Below, in pieces: positions 21,102-33,819 of a stretch of DNA of 33,819 nucleotides (position 1 is its first letter; every line of letters starts with the position of its first letter). The stretch spans positions 1 to 33,819 of the forward strand of contig CAIWHK010000012.1 of assembly GCA_903912525.1 (NCBI GenBank), written 5' to 3'. The stretch comes from an uncultured bacterium. Its GTDB lineage: Bacteria; Krumholzibacteriota; Krumholzibacteriia; LZORAL124-64-63. Below the pieces are notes generated by a model. That model had not been told where the DNA came from, did not search any database, and saw only the letters and a program-made list of their open reading frames with translations. Made by a program: the position numbers and the translations under genes.

Positions 21102-21279
21102 GAATAGATAGTTGTTTGTTGACGGTATGAATTGAGGACTTGCCCGATCCGCGGGGGACGCGTTCGGGCGGCCTGATGCGACAGTCGTGATCGGAACAAG
21201 GTGCGCCGCCACACGGGTGGCGCGCCGGGCGGTCGCCCCGCTGGTCACGTCGCCAGGCAATAGGAAGGACTCCCATTTC

Positions 21280-24200
21280 ATGTCCACCTCGCTCGCCCGT
21301 TTTCCGCTGCGCGGACTGCTGCGCCAGGTCGCCCTCGCCGCCTGCGTAGTCCTCGCCGGTTTCTCGGCCGCTCGCGCCCAGGTCATCGCCGATGACTTCC
21401 ACGCCTGCGCCGTGGATTCGGCGTGGACGTTCGTCGACCCGCTGGGTGACGGCGGCAGCGCCTCCATCACCGGCGGTTACACGGGCGACGCCCACCTGGC
21501 CCTGTCCGTGCCGGGCGGTGTCGAGCACGAGGCATGGGCTGGTGCGGTCAACGCGCCGCACCTGTCGCGCCCGCTGGCCGACGCCGACTTCACGACGACC
21601 GTGAAGTTCGCCTCGGCGCTGCCTGCCGGGTGGGCCCAGGAAGGCCTCTTCATCCGCGAGGGCGCGTCGCAGTGGCTGCGCCTGGAATTCTATCGCGATG
21701 CGGCGGGCTACTTCCACGTCGCGGCCATCGGGTCGCCGACCACGGTCTTCTACGACACGTTCCTGGAGCCGAGCGTGCCGTCGCCGTTCTACATGCGCGT
21801 CACGCGCACCGGCGATTCGTGGCTGGTCGAGTGGTCGAACGACGGCGTCGCCTGGACCACGGCCGGCCCCGCGTTCACGTTTGCCTTCCACCCCGACCGG
21901 CTGGCCATCTATGCCGGCAACCGCGGCGAGACGCCGCCGGCGCACACGGTGCAGGTCGACTGGATCGGCACGGACGGCGCCGGGGACGACGTCGAGCGCA
22001 ACACCCTGACGACGTCGGTCAGCGGCGGCGGCCTCGTGGCGCGCGGCCCCGAACTGTTGAATTACGCCTGCGGGCAGACGGTGACGCTGACGGCGGTCGA
22101 GGAGCCGGGCTGGGCGTTCGCCGGCTGGAGCGGCGCGGTCACCGGCACGCAGAACCCGGTGACGGTCACGATGAGCGGTCCGGACTCGGTCCTGGCCACG
22201 TTCGCTCCGGTGCCGGTCGACACGCTGGTGACGGCGGTCAGCGGCGGCGGCTCGATCAGCCTGTCGCCCCCGGGCGGCATCTACAATCGCGGCACGGTCG
22301 TCACGGTGACGGCCGTCGACGGCCCGGGCTGGGCGTTCGACGCGTTCACGGGCGACCTGTCGGGCAGCGTCAACCCGCAGACGATCACGATGACCGGCAA
22401 CCGCGCGGTCACGGCGGCGTTCACGTCCGTCGCGCAGTACACGGTTACGGCGAGCGTCGACCCGGCCTCTTCCGGCTCGGTCACGCTGAACCCGGCCGGC
22501 GGCACCTACAACGCGGGCACCAAGGTCGTCGTGCGGGCGATCCCCGCGCAGGGCTGGATCTTCTCGGGCTGGAGCGGCGACCTCGCGGGCGTCTCGACCC
22601 CCGACTCGCTGGTGGTCGACGCCGACAAGGTGGTCACCGCGGCGTTCACGGCGCTGCCGTTGCGCGTGCTGACGACCACGGTCAGCGGCTCGGGCACGAT
22701 CGTCCGCGCGCCGGACCAGGCGCAGTACCTCGACGGCACGAAGGTCGTGCTGGCGGCGGTGCCTGACGCCGGCTGGCGCTTCACGGGCTGGAGCGGCGAC
22801 CTGGCGGGGACGGCCACGCCGGACTCGCTGGTGATGAGCGCGGACCACGCCGTGGCCGCGACGTTCGAGGCCATCCCGCCGGTGATCGCCTCCGACGACT
22901 TCAACCGCTGCGACCTGGGCGCGGCGTGGACCGTCGTCGATCCGTTTGCCGACGGCGGCACGGCGCAGATGACGGGCGGCTACACGAACGACGCCGGCGT
23001 GGCGATCAGCGTGCCGGGCGGCTTCGAGCACGAGATCTGGGCGGGCCAGATCGGTGCGACGCACATCCTGCAGCCGTCGCCGGACGTGGACTTCACCATC
23101 GAGGCGAAGTTCGACGCCGACCTGCCGGGCAACTTCGCGCAGGAAGGCATCGTCATCAAGGAGAGCGAGGCGCGCTGGGTGCGCGCGGAGATCTTCCGCG
23201 ATGACACCAATCGCCTGCGGGTCGCGGTCGACCGCGGTCCGAACATCCTGACGCACGACGTGTACCTGCCCGAGGGGCTGACGGCGCCGATGTGGATGCG
23301 CGTGACGCGCACCGGCGACACGTGGGTGCAGTCGTGGTCGTCGGACGGCGTGAACTGGACCGTGGCCGGTGGGCCGTTCACCTACGACATGACCGTGACG
23401 GCGACCGGCCTGTTCGCCGGCAACCGCGGCAGTGCGCCGCCGGCGCACACGGTGGTCGTCGACTACATCCGCAACACCGCGGGCGCGCCCGTGGGCGAGG
23501 ACGCCGACCGGGCCCCGTTGACCGTGACGGTGGACGGGACGGGCGTCGTGAACCGGACCCTGGACCTGCCCAGCTACGGGTGCGGCCAGGTGGAGACGTT
23601 GACGGCCGTCGGTCAGCCGGGCTGGGCGTTCAGCAGCTGGAGCGGCGCGGCTACCGGCACGCAGAATCCCGTGACGGTGCCGATGAACGGCCCGGGCGCG
23701 GTCCTGGCCACGTTCGTTCCCGTGCCGGTCGACACGCTGGTGACGGCGGTCAGCGGCGGCGGCTCGATCAGCCTGTCGCCTCCGGGCGGCATCTACAATC
23801 GCGGCACCGTCGTGACGGTGACGGCGGTCGACGGCCCGGGCTGGGCGTTCGACGCGTTCACGGGCGACCTGGTGGGCAGCGTCAATCCGCAGACGATCAC
23901 GATGAACGGCAACCGCGCGGTCACGGCGGCTTTCACTTCGGTGGCCCAGTACACGGTGACGGCGAACGTGGACCCGGCCTCGTCGGGCACGGTCACGCTG
24001 AACCCGGCCGGCGGCACCTACAACGCGGGCACCAAGGTCGTCGTGCGGGCGATCCCCGCGCAGGGTTGGGTCTTCACGGGCTGGAGCGGCGACCTCGCGG
24101 GTGTCGCGACGCGCGACTCGCTGGTGGTCGACGCCGACAAGGTGGTCACCGCGGCGTTCACGGCGCTGCCGTTGCGCGTGCTGACGACGACGGTCAGCGG

Positions 24201-27200
24201 CTCGGGCACGATCGTCCGCGCGCCGAACCAGGCCGATTACCTGGACGGCACGAAGGTCGTGCTGGCGGCGGTGCCGGATGCCGGCTGGCGCTTCCTGGGC
24301 TGGAGCGGCGACCTGGCGGGGACGGCGACGCCGGACTCGCTGGTGATGAGCGCTGACCACGCGGTGGGCGCGACGTTCGAGATCATCCCGCCGGTCATCG
24401 CGTCGGACGACTTCAACCGTTGCGACCTGGGCGCGACGTGGACCGTCGTCGACCCGTACGGCGACGGCGGCACGGCGCAGATGACGGGCGGCTACACGAA
24501 CGACGCCGGCGTTGCGATCAGCGTGCCTGGCGGCTTCGAGCACGAGATCTGGGCGGGCCAGATCGGTGCGACGCACATCCTGCAGCCGGCGCCGGACGTG
24601 GACTTCACCATCGAGGCGAAGTTCGACGCGGACCTGCCGGGCAACTTCGCGCAGGAAGGCATCGTCATCAAGGAGAGCGAGGCGCGCTGGGTGCGCGCGG
24701 AGATCTTCCGCGACGACTTCAACCGGCTGCGGGTCGCGGTCGACCGCGGTCCGGACATCCTGACGCACGACGTGTACCTGCCGGAAGGCCTGACGGCGCC
24801 GCTGTGGATGCGCGTTACGCGCACGGGCGACACCTGGGTGCAGTCGTGGTCGTCGGACGGCGTGACCTGGAACGTCGCGAGCGGTCCGTTCACGTACCAC
24901 ATGACCGTCACCGCGGCGGGCCTGTTCGCCGGCAACCGCGGCAGCGCGCCGCCGGCCCACACGGTGGTCGTCGACTACATCCGCAACACCGCGGGCGCGC
25001 CCGTGGGCGAGGACGCCGACCGCGCTCCGTTGACGGTGACGGTGGACGGGACGGGCGTCGTGAACCGGACCCTGGACCTGCCGAGCTACGGGTGCGGCCA
25101 GGTGGAGACGTTGACGGCCGTCGGGCAGCCGGGCTGGGCGTTCAGCAGTTGGAGCGGCGCCGTGACCGGCACGCAGAACCCCATCGCGGTCACGATGTCC
25201 GGGCCGGCCACCGTCGTGGCGCATTTCACGGTCCTGCCGCAGTACGCGCTCAGTGTCGGCACGGCTTCCGGGCAGGGCTCGGTGCAGGTGAGCCCGGCGG
25301 GCGGCCTCTACTACGAAGGGACGCGGGTCGCGGTCACGGCCGTGCCCGACTTCGGCTGGTCGTTCTCCGGTTGGGGCGGCGACCTCAGCGGGATCGCCAA
25401 CCCCGATACGCTGGTGATGTCCGGCGCGCGCTCGGTCACGGCATCGTTCGTGCAGCTGCCGACGCCGAATTTCGTCAGTATCGCGGCGCCGGCGGGCCAG
25501 AGCCTCTCGACGATCACGTCGTGCCTCGACAGCATCGCCGTGCGCCTGGACCGCCTCGAGTCCGACCCGATCCACTCGTTCAGCCTCGGCCTGAAGCTCA
25601 CGAACCTGGCGCTGTGCAGCGGCGCCGCCTCGGTCCGTGAAGGCGGCTACCTGGGCGCCCACGGCAGCGTGTCGTTCGTCGTCACGCAGACCAGCGACAG
25701 CACGCTGACCGTCGACGGCACGCTCCTGAGCGGCCCGTGCGGCGCCAGCGAGCCCGCCGGCGTGCTGGCCTGGCTCGACGTGTCGGCGCTCATCAGCGAC
25801 GGCACCGGCTCGGTCACGGTCACGTCGGTTCAGCTGCGCGGCTGCGACGACCTGCCCCGCATCGTCGAAGCCACGGGCCCCGGCACGGTGACGATCGACA
25901 ACACGCCGCCGGCTCCTGCCACGGGGCTGACGGCCGCGACCTTGATGTCCGGCAACGCCGCCGGTTCGTTGACGGCGATCAACGTGGCCTGGACCGCCGT
26001 GCCTGCGCTTGACGTCCAGTCGATCGAGGTGTGGCGCAAGGGCTTCGGTGCGCAGCCCGAGTTCTCCGATGGCGGCGGCGCCGTGCCGGCGATCCCTGCG
26101 GCCGGCACCGACCCGGCCAGTGTCGGCTGGCAGCTGGCGGGCGTGCTTGGCGGCAGCGCCGCAGGGGTGCTCGACCACCCGGTGACGCGCGACTACTGGT
26201 ACTACCACGTCCGCACGGTGGACGCCGCGGGCAACCGCGCCGTGACGCCGACCCTTGCCGTGGCCCTGGATTACCTCCTCGCGGATGTGGCAGGCGGCGT
26301 GGGCAACGTGGGCGACGACATGGTGGGTGGGGCCGATGTCGCGGCCTTCTCCGGCGCGTACGGCTCGCTGGACGGCCAGCCGTCCTACCGCAACGGTTGC
26401 GATGTGGGCCCGACGGCGGATGCCGGGCCGTTCTCGCTGCCGACGACGGACAACCGCATCGACTTCGAGGACCTGATGATCCTCAGCCTCAGCCACGGCC
26501 TTGACGCCGTGGGCGGGGCCTCGTCCCTGGCGTCCTCGCCGGCGCCGGCCGGCGGCAATGCGCTGATGCTGACCCCCGACACGCTGCCGGGAGTCGGGTC
26601 GACGTTCCCGGTCACCATCGTGATGGCGGGCGACGGCACCGTGCAGGGCCTGAGCATCCCGCTCACGTGGGACAACGCCGTCGTGACGCCGGTCGCGGCA
26701 GTCTCCGGGGCGCTGCTGTCGGGCCAGGGCGGTTCGTCGCTGGTCTTCATGCCGCAGCCGGGGCTCATCGATGTGGCCCTGCTCGGCCTGCGCGAGCGCG
26801 GCATCTCGGGCGCGGGCGCCCTGGCCGTGGTCACGTTCGAGGTCGTCGGCACGGGGCAGCCTCGGTTCGGTTTCGGCACGGTCACGGCGCGCAGCCGTGA
26901 GAACGCCGCGGCGGCCGTGACCATCAACGGCGTCTCGGACGCTCCTGACCTGCCGGCCACGCCGGTGATGACGGTCCTGCACCAGAACAAGCCGAACCCG
27001 TTCAACCCGCGGACAACGGTGTCGTTCGACCTGGCGCGTCCGGGGCAGGTGCGGCTGATGGTCTATGGCGTGGACGGTCGTCTGGCGCGTGTCCTGGCCG
27101 ACGGCTCCCTGCCGGCCGGCAACCATGCCTACACCTGGGACGGCACCGACGAGGGCGGCCGACGCCTGGCCTCGGGCGTGTACCTGGTGCGGTTGGTCAC

Positions 27201-27243
27201 GCCGGACGGCATTCGCGATGTCCGGATGACCATGCTCAAGTAA
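21280..27243 (+). CDS. Giant secreted repeat protein with DUF1349-like, InlB-repeat, cohesin/dockerin-like and FlgD-like parts
   Basis: This 1987-aa protein has a signal peptide at 1-33 (AARA then Q). In order it shows a DUF1349/concanavalin-like domain (about 36-230), four divergent InlB B-repeats (about 242-530), a second DUF1349-like domain (535-735), four more InlB repeats (746-1035), a third DUF1349-like domain (1039-1238), and two to three InlB repeats (1249-1395). A cohesin-like domain (about 1397-1540) and a fibronectin III-like domain (about 1541-1665) follow, then a dockerin-like pair of loops (ADVAGGVGNVGDDMVGGADV and CDVGPTADAG...DNRIDFEDLMILS, about 1664-1745) and a second cohesin-like domain (1760-1890). 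A FlgD Ig-like tail closes it (NKPNPFNPRTTVSF to VRMTMLK). It is probably a surface adhesin or scaffold. No catalytic motif is seen. The gene has its own promoter and terminator. Confidence 0.87.
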   Translation: MSTSLARFPLRGLLRQVALAACVVLAGFSAARAQVIADDFHACAVDSAWTFVDPLGDGGSASITGGYTGDAHLALSVPGGVEHEAWAGAVNAPHLSRPLADADFTTTVKFASALPAGWAQEGLFIREGASQWLRLEFYRDAAGYFHVAAIGSPTTVFYDTFLEPSVPSPFYMRVTRTGDSWLVEWSNDGVAWTTAGPAFTFAFHPDRLAIYAGNRGETPPAHTVQVDWIGTDGAGDDVERNTLTTSVSGGGLVARGPELLNYACGQTVTLTAVEEPGWAFAGWSGAVTGTQNPVTVTMSGPDSVLATFAPVPVDTLVTAVSGGGSISLSPPGGIYNRGTVVTVTAVDGPGWAFDAFTGDLSGSVNPQTITMTGNRAVTAAFTSVAQYTVTASVDPASSGSVTLNPAGGTYNAGTKVVVRAIPAQGWIFSGWSGDLAGVSTPDSLVVDADKVVTAAFTALPLRVLTTTVSGSGTIVRAPDQAQYLDGTKVVLAAVPDAGWRFTGWSGDLAGTATPDSLVMSADHAVAATFEAIPPVIASDDFNRCDLGAAWTVVDPFADGGTAQMTGGYTNDAGVAISVPGGFEHEIWAGQIGATHILQPSPDVDFTIEAKFDADLPGNFAQEGIVIKESEARWVRAEIFRDDTNRLRVAVDRGPNILTHDVYLPEGLTAPMWMRVTRTGDTWVQSWSSDGVNWTVAGGPFTYDMTVTATGLFAGNRGSAPPAHTVVVDYIRNTAGAPVGEDADRAPLTVTVDGTGVVNRTLDLPSYGCGQVETLTAVGQPGWAFSSWSGAATGTQNPVTVPMNGPGAVLATFVPVPVDTLVTAVSGGGSISLSPPGGIYNRGTVVTVTAVDGPGWAFDAFTGDLVGSVNPQTITMNGNRAVTAAFTSVAQYTVTANVDPASSGTVTLNPAGGTYNAGTKVVVRAIPAQGWVFTGWSGDLAGVATRDSLVVDADKVVTAAFTALPLRVLTTTVSGSGTIVRAPNQADYLDGTKVVLAAVPDAGWRFLGWSGDLAGTATPDSLVMSADHAVGATFEIIPPVIASDDFNRCDLGATWTVVDPYGDGGTAQMTGGYTNDAGVAISVPGGFEHEIWAGQIGATHILQPAPDVDFTIEAKFDADLPGNFAQEGIVIKESEARWVRAEIFRDDFNRLRVAVDRGPDILTHDVYLPEGLTAPLWMRVTRTGDTWVQSWSSDGVTWNVASGPFTYHMTVTAAGLFAGNRGSAPPAHTVVVDYIRNTAGAPVGEDADRAPLTVTVDGTGVVNRTLDLPSYGCGQVETLTAVGQPGWAFSSWSGAVTGTQNPIAVTMSGPATVVAHFTVLPQYALSVGTASGQGSVQVSPAGGLYYEGTRVAVTAVPDFGWSFSGWGGDLSGIANPDTLVMSGARSVTASFVQLPTPNFVSIAAPAGQSLSTITSCLDSIAVRLDRLESDPIHSFSLGLKLTNLALCSGAASVREGGYLGAHGSVSFVVTQTSDSTLTVDGTLLSGPCGASEPAGVLAWLDVSALISDGTGSVTVTSVQLRGCDDLPRIVEATGPGTVTIDNTPPAPATGLTAATLMSGNAAGSLTAINVAWTAVPALDVQSIEVWRKGFGAQPEFSDGGGAVPAIPAAGTDPASVGWQLAGVLGGSAAGVLDHPVTRDYWYYHVRTVDAAGNRAVTPTLAVALDYLLADVAGGVGNVGDDMVGGADVAAFSGAYGSLDGQPSYRNGCDVGPTADAGPFSLPTTDNRIDFEDLMILSLSHGLDAVGGASSLASSPAPAGGNALMLTPDTLPGVGSTFPVTIVMAGDGTVQGLSIPLTWDNAVVTPVAAVSGALLSGQGGSSLVFMPQPGLIDVALLGLRERGISGAGALAVVTFEVVGTGQPRFGFGTVTARSRENAAAAVTINGVSDAPDLPATPVMTVLHQNKPNPFNPRTTVSFDLARPGQVRLMVYGVDGRLARVLADGSLPAGNHAYTWDGTDEGGRRLASGVYLVRLVTPDGIRDVRMTMLK
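22060..25210 (+). repeat. Long in-frame direct repeat with a 1512-bp period
   Basis: Inside the giant gene the sequence matches itself at an offset of exactly 1512 bp (504 codons). For example the stretch beginning TGCCGGTCGACACG is at 22211 and 23723, and GACTACATCCGCAACACC is at 23461 and 24973. One period is a DUF1349-like domain plus four InlB repeats. There are about two full periods, with the first DUF1349-like domain (from 21376) more diverged. Many stretches are identical over tens of bases. Confidence 0.9.
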
Positions 27244-31319: not shown

Positions 31320-33716
31320 ATGCGTGCTCGTTACAGCCTGCCGCGCCTGCTGGCGGTGGCCCTGTTGATGGTCGTGGCGACGGTCGGTTGGTCCTGGGCC
31401 ACCACGCCGCAGACGATCGTCATCGACGGGGTCAATGACTTCCTGCCCGCCAACCTCGTCGATGCCGACGGCGCCGACACCCAGTTCCCCAACATCGACC
31501 TGGGTGACACCTACGCGACCAACGACGCGGTCAACCTGTTCCTCGGCCTGACGCAGAATCCGGCCGGCTGGAGCGGCGTGCAGCTCGGCATCGCGATCGA
31601 CGTGAACACCGCCGCCGGCGGCGCCGTCGACCCGTGGGGCCGCAAGCTGGAGTGGAGCCTGGCGCCGTACATGCCGGACTTCATGTTCTACGTCAACCTG
31701 AGCAACAATTGGCAGGCCGGATACCAGTGGAACGGCACCGGCTGGACCGGTATCGGCGCGGCCGGGCCCGGCGGGCTGGGCTGGAGCACCACGACGGGCT
31801 TCAAGGAACTGCCCATCCTGCTGTCGACCCTCGGTGTGACGGCCGGCAGCACGATCCGCTGGGAAGCCTGGGTCACCCAGGACGGCGCCACCAAGGGTCC
31901 GCTCGACGCGATGGCCAACGACGGCTCGCAGCTGTCGACCCCGACGCTCACGCTGTGGGACACCCCGTCGGCGATCCCGATGATCGACATGACGACCTAC
32001 ACGGTGCAGTCGGCGGCCGACCCGAACCCGCCGTACGTGACCGGCGTCCAGGCCACCGGCTATCCCATCACGAACCTGTTCGACGTCGTGTTCAACGAGC
32101 CCGTGAAGGCCTCGAGCGTGCTGGCCAACGGCAGCCAGTTCGTGTTCAGCGGCGGCGCCACGGCGACGGCCGCTACCGTAGCGGGCAACGTCGTGCACCT
32201 GACGCTGGCGGCAGCCCCTGCCGCTTCCGCCTCGCTGTACTCGGTAACCGTGACCGGCGTGACCGACCTGGCCGGCAATGCCGTGCCGGCGGACAACGTC
32301 CTGAACCGGGCCTGTTTCGGCTTGAAGGACGTCACCTTCCGCGGCAAGTTCAGCCAGTTCCTGGCCGGCCAGGGCGCCGGGCCGCACGCCTTCTCGGTCG
32401 AGGGCGACCAGGCCCCGCTGACGTTCGACCCGCTGTGCGACACCGGCGTCATGACCGACACCGGCAGCGGCGGCGTGTGGGAGTACGCGGTGAAGATGCT
32501 GTACGGCGGCAACTGCGCGGCCGGCACGGGCACGGATACCTTCGAGTTCAAGTGCAACTACAACTGCGGCACGTGGGAGCCCCTGTCCAGCAACCGCACG
32601 CACACCCTGGACATCGCCAACGGCGCCGCGGACCTGGTGGAGTTCTGGTGGAACAACGAGGACCCGACCGTCTTCACGACGCGCGCGGTCGACGTCGTCT
32701 TCCACGTGGACATGAACCTGACGGGCTTTGTGGTCGCCGATTCGATCGGCATCAACGGCAACGTCCTGCCGCTGAACTACACCCGGCCGACGACCAACCT
32801 GCTGCATGACGACGGCCTGGCCGGCGACACGGCTGCCGGCGACGGCGTCTTCGCGGGGACGATCTCGTTCCCGACCGGATCGCGGCGCGACGTGGCGTAC
32901 AAGTTCCTCAAGAACTCCGTCTACGAGTGCCTCGGCCAGGGTGACCGCACCGTGTACCTGAACGACACGCTGTTCGGCAACGGCAGCAACGGCGGCCCGG
33001 CGCTGGACCTGCCTGTGGTGAAGTACGACTTCTGCTCGAAGATCTGGCGCGACGTGGCCGTGGTCTTCAGCGTGGACTTCAACAGCACCGCGTGGGCCGG
33101 CGTCAAGCCGGGCGACCTGGTGAGCGTCGATGGCACGCCGAACTTCGACAACACGTTCAACTGGGACGTGCCGTCGCTGAACAACCTGCTCGACAACGGC
33201 GTGGCGCCGGACCTCGTGGCGGGCGACAAGATCTTCACGGGCAAGGTGACGTTCCCGGCCGGCAGCGACCAGAACGTCTCGTACAAGTTCCTCTACAAGA
33301 GCGTGTTCGAGTGCATCGGCGAGAGCGACCGCAGCTTCTCGATCAACTGCGACACGTACACCGTCGCCAGCCCCCAGGTGCTGGCGGTGGACCGCTTCCA
33401 GGCCTGCCCCGTGTCCGGCGTTCCGTCGGCACAGGTCAGCGGCCTGGTGCTCGAGCAGAACAGTCCGAACCCGTTCAACCCGAAGACCGTGATCAGCTTC
33501 ACCGTGGCCAGCGAAGGCCGCGGCACCCTGCGGGTGTTCAACCTGCGCGGCGAACTGATCCGCACGCTGCGCGACGGCACCTTCGCCGCCGGCCAGCAGT
33601 CGGTCGAGTGGGACGGGCGTGGTGACAACGGTGTCCTCGCGGGCAGTGGCGTCTACCTGTACCGCCTCGAGGTCGCTGGCGAGGCGATCAGCCGGCGGAT
33701 GATGCTGCTGAAGTAA
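31320..33716 (+). CDS. Secreted multidomain protein with probable starch-binding modules and FlgD-like tail
   Basis: This 798-aa protein starts 12 bp after the GH57 gene with GGAGGAG in place, so the two form an operon. Both leaders begin MRAR and were probably copied or matched. A signal peptide covers 1-27. Residues 31-225 are a beta-rich CBM9/DOMON-like domain. About 231-331 is an SbsA-type Ig-like domain (FDVVFNEPVKASSV ... VTDLAGNAVPADN). Three related modules follow at about 334-454, 457-570 and 578-692. The last two share VVFHVDMN or VVFSVDFN openings, a dDGLAGD or DNGVAPD turn, and YKFLKNSVYECLGQGDRT or YKFLYKSVFECIGESDRS cores, resembling CBM20/SusE-type starch-binding folds. The tail (QNSPNPFNPKTVISF to RRMMLLK) is FlgD Ig-like. 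It probably holds substrate for the GH57 enzyme; the binding specificity is inferred. Confidence 0.82.
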   Translation: MRARYSLPRLLAVALLMVVATVGWSWATTPQTIVIDGVNDFLPANLVDADGADTQFPNIDLGDTYATNDAVNLFLGLTQNPAGWSGVQLGIAIDVNTAAGGAVDPWGRKLEWSLAPYMPDFMFYVNLSNNWQAGYQWNGTGWTGIGAAGPGGLGWSTTTGFKELPILLSTLGVTAGSTIRWEAWVTQDGATKGPLDAMANDGSQLSTPTLTLWDTPSAIPMIDMTTYTVQSAADPNPPYVTGVQATGYPITNLFDVVFNEPVKASSVLANGSQFVFSGGATATAATVAGNVVHLTLAAAPAASASLYSVTVTGVTDLAGNAVPADNVLNRACFGLKDVTFRGKFSQFLAGQGAGPHAFSVEGDQAPLTFDPLCDTGVMTDTGSGGVWEYAVKMLYGGNCAAGTGTDTFEFKCNYNCGTWEPLSSNRTHTLDIANGAADLVEFWWNNEDPTVFTTRAVDVVFHVDMNLTGFVVADSIGINGNVLPLNYTRPTTNLLHDDGLAGDTAAGDGVFAGTISFPTGSRRDVAYKFLKNSVYECLGQGDRTVYLNDTLFGNGSNGGPALDLPVVKYDFCSKIWRDVAVVFSVDFNSTAWAGVKPGDLVSVDGTPNFDNTFNWDVPSLNNLLDNGVAPDLVAGDKIFTGKVTFPAGSDQNVSYKFLYKSVFECIGESDRSFSINCDTYTVASPQVLAVDRFQACPVSGVPSAQVSGLVLEQNSPNPFNPKTVISFTVASEGRGTLRVFNLRGELIRTLRDGTFAAGQQSVEWDGRGDNGVLAGSGVYLYRLEVAGEAISRRMMLLK

Positions 33717-33740
33717 CGCGCCGTCGCCTGGCGACAGGGC

Positions 33741-33816
33741 GTTCACAAACAACTGGTGGCGGGCAGTCCTCGCGCCTTCGGCGCTGCGGATAGCCCGCCA
33801 CCAGTTGTTTGTGAAC
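33741..33816. repeat. Perfect 24-bp inverted repeat at the window end
   Basis: The arms 33741-33764 and 33793-33816 are exact reverse complements (outer GTTCACAAAC, inner GGTGGCGGGC). The 28-nt centre holds its own 5-bp stem GCGCC-TTC-GGCGC (33772-33784). It begins 25 bp after the stop of the last gene. It may be a bidirectional terminator, a REP- or MITE-like element, or an assembly foldback. Confidence 0.8.
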
Positions 33817-33819
33817 ACC

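Follow-up and report, generated by a model that had tools for sequence, protein, structure and literature searches.

A dispersed family of long hairpins downstream of genes, with a fixed tip and co-changing arms, that probably act as terminators

The window, which is the whole stretch of DNA that was analyzed (33,819 nt), is the entire contig C12 of a 4.29 Mb genome in 72 contigs (G000). At its right-hand end, the stop codon of a protein-coding gene ends 24 nt ahead of the left arm of a long hairpin. The features at this locus are:

31320..33716, + strand: upstream gene, 798 amino acids, with Big_5 and FlgD_ig domains and a C-terminal RRMMLLK
33738..33819, + strand: whole hairpin, counting the two extra pairs beyond one mismatch; 33819 is the last base of the contig
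33741..33764, + strand: left arm, with an A-rich outer part (ACAAACAAC) and a G+C-rich GGCGGGC adjoining the core; fully complementary to the right arm
33765..33792, + strand: conserved apical core, AGTCCTC-GCGC-CTTCG-GCGC-TGCGGATA
33793..33816, + strand: right arm, 24 bp, with a U-rich stretch (GTTGTTTGTG)

The arms are a perfect inverted repeat of 24 bp (33741-33764, GTTCACAAACAACTGGTGGCGGGC, and its exact reverse complement at 33793-33816), and beyond one mismatch outside the arms there are 2 further pairs. The predicted RNA fold has an energy of -66.3 kcal/mol, versus -28.7 (standard deviation 3.35) for 200 shuffled sequences, none of which was as stable (z = -11.2). Also, in 400 kb of Markov control sequence all arms were shorter than 17 bp. 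The long perfect hairpin that an earlier note on this DNA described is therefore real. The centre (28 nt) was said to be structured, and it does hold an inner hairpin of its own: an A/A mismatch, GUCC paired with GGAU (with one G.U pair), a short inner stem, and a CUUCG loop. The count of four bases outside the repeat was wrong, as there are three (33817-33819). We ruled out a known RNA family: a search of 33000-33819 against Rfam gave five weak matches, all far below the gathering scores.

The upstream gene has orthologs in three sister genomes (90% identity in G002, 87% in G001, and 77% in G003, up to the hairpin), and each of them is followed by a hairpin of its own. The arm sequence differs by species, and the arms are 24 bp long in G000 (where the contig end truncates them), 34 in G001, 36 in G002, and 40, with one mismatch, in G003. 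In G002, the left arm closes one contig and its perfect complement opens another; about 180 nt further along the second contig is a second, facing hairpin, which belongs to a convergent gene (gene B). In G000, gene B is at the start of contig C41, and C41 begins within a core of the opposite orientation. Therefore, it is very probable that C12 and C41 adjoin each other across two facing hairpins, and that the hairpin repeat is what breaks the contigs there. The gene B hairpin is present in G000 and G002 and absent from G001 and G003.

The hairpin is not unique. An 85-bp query had strong further matches in its own genome, and most of them span only the centre and a few arm bases. A covariance model had 32 matches in G000, and it found the element in 30 of the 38 examined genomes from the same family and in none of the 42 examined genomes from other families of the class (the phylum-level search covered the same 80 genomes as the class-level search, all within one class). 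A search of G000 with a pattern for the tip gave 40 hits, as compared to 2 for the backward control. By eye, 32 of the 40 look real and 8, which lack the inner stem, were judged to be chance; adding two truncated copies at contig starts (C21 and C36) gave a set of 34 copies for this genome.

What the copies share is the tip: A-GTCCTC, a 3-4-bp inner stem with a CTTCG-type loop, and TGCGGAT-A. The inner stem differs among copies, usually still paired. The arms are specific to each locus, yet left and right mirror each other, and nearly all complete copies have long arms (19-78 bp, median 34, in the 53 copies that have both sides and pass a minimum arm score); some copies have poor arms, namely L050, the minus-strand copy of L089, L095, and L099. 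About 28-42 nt are common to the copies, and outside this core and a few adjoining bases there is no shared sequence. The proximal bases of the arms follow the core type. We aligned 45 of 46 reference copies (L159 is not a hairpin and was dropped), and 95.3% of cells were paired, versus 61.6% in shuffles. Both-side changes numbered 409 and one-side changes 4. Since many of the 45 rows are paralogs, these counts show matching of the arms at each locus and not their mode of evolution.

Because the tip was itself part of the pattern used to choose rows for the alignment, its invariance is in part built in. However, when 378 kb of G009 was scanned with no pattern, 8 hairpins had arms of 16 bp or longer, and 7 of the 8 carried the tip. 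The arms of these eight were 24 bp or longer; a similar sample of G015 had two arms above 30 bp, one with the tip. The sample of G000 had no arm above 18 bp outside of the tip family, and the full tip was missing from all three arms of 18-30 bp in G047, which is from another family. We considered whether long hairpins are a general habit of the class, and this pattern-free census of four genomes led us to reject the idea. Long hairpins that lack the tip do occur in relatives (L166, L224, and L239). Also, two perfect hairpins in G047, 30 and 20 bp long (L239:19451-19569 and L248:13633-13697), have different spacers, one of which contains AGTCCTCGCGC; it is possible that these are distant relatives of the element.

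The window's copy is 3 bases from a contig end, and roughly 24 of the 34 copies in G000 are at contig ends (counted by hand, with the core at most 60 nt from an end), so a foldback created by assembly or library preparation, which the earlier note raised, had to be considered. One contig start may be of this kind: L191:1-540 (G034 contig 369) folds back over 254 bp with 22 mismatches, through a copy of the hairpin and into an acetate-kinase-like gene (named from its translation, not from a family search). L191 may contain two convergent gene copies, or it may be an assembly foldback that joined strain variants. For the family as a whole, we reject an artefact, which we consider extremely improbable: in this genome and in sister assemblies, as well as in a genome of just 4 contigs (L161), there are internal copies that are flanked by unrelated sequence on either side, and independent assemblies contain orthologous hairpins. 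The causation is the opposite: the repeat breaks the contigs. As the element breaks metagenome contigs at the ends of genes, it matters for assembling this lineage.

After de-duplication there were 87 copies, 77 of which have a callable upstream gene. In 72 of these 77, the gene is on the same strand as the copy, and 5 have no same-strand upstream gene (our gene calls are mechanical, from ORF length and codon-position G+C, and a few may be wrong). The upstream stop codon is 29-58 nt ahead of the core in 64 of the 72 same-strand copies. For 37 of the 87 copies, the downstream gene is convergent with a same-strand upstream gene. We scanned 10 of the host genes for protein families, and 9 had matches, which were diverse: FlgD_ig secreted proteins, IF-2, glutamine synthetase, OmpA, cytochrome c assembly, and others. 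This rejects the idea that FlgD_ig genes are the only hosts.

The right arm is T-rich at 9-24 nt past the core. In 23 of 53 copies, the right arm includes an 8-nt window with 5 or more T, compared with 10 of 212 downstream control windows. In the other 30 copies the U-rich stretch is weak, and beyond the right arm there is no T-run (mean of 1.5 T in 10 nt, 53 copies). At the window locus, the GTTGTTTGTG stretch would be the terminator tract of the transcript. A scan of the window for canonical terminators found 7, as compared to 7.5 expected by chance, and is therefore uninformative.

The arms change together. At eight loci, 47 of 55 substitutions in the left arm between orthologs are mirrored in the right arm (from 13 pairwise comparisons, six of which compare the four species of the window locus with one another and so are not independent). 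Differences in arm length between orthologs are also mirrored in the opposite arm. We left out ortholog groups E, F, G, G2, and J, in which the right arm of at least one row is cut by a contig end or, in L099, unpaired; L099 may be a misjoined contig, although this is a guess. In 42 copies (excluding three rows with poor arms), there are 839 arm pairs: 816 Watson-Crick, 2 G.U, 8 A.C, and 13 others. Thus, only 2 of the 23 mismatches are G.U, while G.U is reported as the commonest intermediate in terminators of Bacillus cereus (PMC5381666). If the stem were compensated step by step at the RNA level, then G.U intermediates should remain, yet here they are not favored. Also, L002 from G000 and L048 from a sister species lie between the same two convergent genes, and their cores are oriented oppositely. 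L004 and L095 are probably another loop-inverted pair.

Homogenization of arms and inversion of spacers are both described as outcomes of template switching (PMC8604942), and template switching can create and maintain RNA hairpins (PMC8794818). We suggest that during DNA replication, one arm would be copied in inverted form from the other (template switching, or quasipalindrome correction), which would keep the arms nearly perfect. This inverted copying, rather than stepwise compensating mutations, would keep the two arms alike, and now and then it would also flip the loop. We infer template switching as the agent from the pattern of sequence changes; gene conversion between the arms would leave a similar pattern.

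We think that the observed structure, dispersal, position at 3' ends, orthology, co-changing arms, and loop flip are best explained together: this is probably a family-specific hairpin at the 3' ends of genes that serves as an intrinsic and often bidirectional terminator, and whose arms are made and repaired by inverted template copying. During transcription of the upstream gene, RNA polymerase would be copying the U-rich portion of the right arm as the conserved tip and the G+C-rich proximal arms fold behind it. Because the whole unit is a palindrome, it could serve convergent genes from either side. Among the readings in the earlier note, a bidirectional terminator is the best supported (by where the copies lie and how they are oriented, by the convergent genes, and by right arms rich in U), with termination itself inferred from position and base composition. 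Against it are the weak U-rich stretch in 30 of 53 copies, the lack of a T-run past the arm, the 5 of 77 copies that lack a same-strand upstream gene, and the few copies with poor arms. Also, a terminator needs neither 34-bp arms nor a fixed tip sequence, so termination leaves the tip unexplained. Either a bound factor or the descent of a copying unit might account for it.

If the hairpins were ordinary intrinsic terminators, with perfect arms held by selection on RNA pairing alone, then the placement at gene 3' ends and the enrichment of U would be expected, and terminator hairpins in Streptomyces are likewise long and covarying (PMC12207403). However, the arms are near perfect over 30-40 bp, which is well past the needs of termination, G.U intermediates are not favored, length changes occur in both arms, and the loop inverts. 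We consider this explanation improbable. It is also doubtful, though a little less so, that the hairpin is a protein- or RNA-binding element whose tip would be the site of a lineage-specific factor (for protection or processing of the mRNA 3' end, or for aided termination), with the arms as a stalk. This would fit with a tip that is fixed while the inner stem and arms vary with compensation, with a core that, read in the gene's sense strand, has a G.U pair in 42 of 45 copies, and with the restriction to one bacterial family among the class genomes examined. On the other hand, loop flips move the tip to the other strand at some loci, and part of the tip's invariance is due to how copies were chosen, even if 7 of 8 hairpins in the pattern-free scan of G009 have it.

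Whether the element moves is a related question. There are 12 pairs of facing hairpins that are 119-2078 bp apart (L178, L182, L187, L194, L087, L088, L089, L116, L028, L073, L183, and L227), and they are not all independent, as L028/L073 and L088/L116 are orthologous sets. Every opposite-strand pair on one contig faces inward, and 10 of the 12 have the same inner stem, which suggests that the facing neighbors arose by local duplication. A mobile or selfish repeat, in which a core of 28-42 nt spreads and its insertion duplicates the flank in inverted form to make the arms, would account for these pairs, for the dispersed copies, for the variable presence of the gene B hairpin, and for the association of core type with proximal arm bases. 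Yet the copies are orthologs and not newly scattered, as the same genes carry them in four species, with two of the loci also found in another genus; the copies are placed tightly past stop codons and in the orientation of the gene; and beyond the core and a few bases no sequence is common to them. Furthermore, the REP-type Y1 transposase (PF01797) had no matches in G000, while 5 of 14 control genomes were positive, so we rejected a RAYT/REP system. REP families are typically alike through the stem. Here the tip alone is shared, and MITE-like terminal inverted repeats common to the copies are not found, as the arms are locus-specific. Of the REP/MITE-type repeat that the earlier note suggested, the dispersal holds up, but we view a mobile repeat as unlikely. 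A dedicated 3'-end module is only slightly easier to credit: a factor would recognize the fixed tip, and the arms would be actively rewritten to mirror, in inverted form, the end of the local gene. A new copy would arise when a tip is placed behind a gene and the flanking sequence is copied across it, and facing neighbors with the same tip would be such duplications.

Several known systems resemble the proposed terminators in part. Like bidirectional intrinsic terminators, these hairpins are closely past stop codons, are often between convergent genes, and have a G+C-rich stem by a tract that is U-rich in some of the copies (23 of 53), with a matching A-rich tract on the opposite side; A-tracts mark bidirectional terminators (PMC12207403). 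Unlike them, this family has arms with a median of 34 bp, a U-tract that is buried in the arm, a fixed tip, and arms that evolve as mutual copies. The uptake-signal terminators of Neisseria and Pasteurellaceae also have a genome-wide fixed sequence within terminator hairpins (PMC1852404), but there it is the stem and is very frequent, while here it forms the tip (32 model matches) of stems that differ from locus to locus. REP/RAYT-associated repeats and other stem-loop families are short dispersed intergenic palindromes too (PMC2267715), with the differences given above. Hairpins corrected by template switching have perfected arms and inverted spacers, but they were described in yeast coding DNA and in RNA genes (PMC8604942 and PMC8794818), and the present case is a dispersed gene-end family with one conserved tip.

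We found no description of this element in the literature that we searched. A 2026 survey of inverted repeats reported that, for perfect repeats within bacterial species, arms are conserved and spacers variable (PMC13155455); in this family the rule is the opposite, as the arms change together and the tip is fixed. Long perfect stems are hard to account for by single stepwise mutations. With dozens of loci, and orthologs across sister species and genera, the family offers a natural setting in which to test whether hairpins are maintained by templated copying.

We also noticed other repeats. Another recurrent palindrome (ACTTGCGCCGGCGCAAGT, whole or partial) is present at several places in G000 and the sister genomes (L095, L125, L142, L149, and, downstream of the hairpin, L040). 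At L140:3311-3380 and L095:1908-1976, in G000 and G003, there is an inverted repeat of 18 bp (16 bp), GTTGACCTATCAACCA, whose arms are 34-37 nt apart, and which is perhaps a separate small repeat family. Within the window, a 2018-aa ORF (21187-27243) contains a repeated module spaced by 1512 nt (repeat families D1, D2, D3, and D7).
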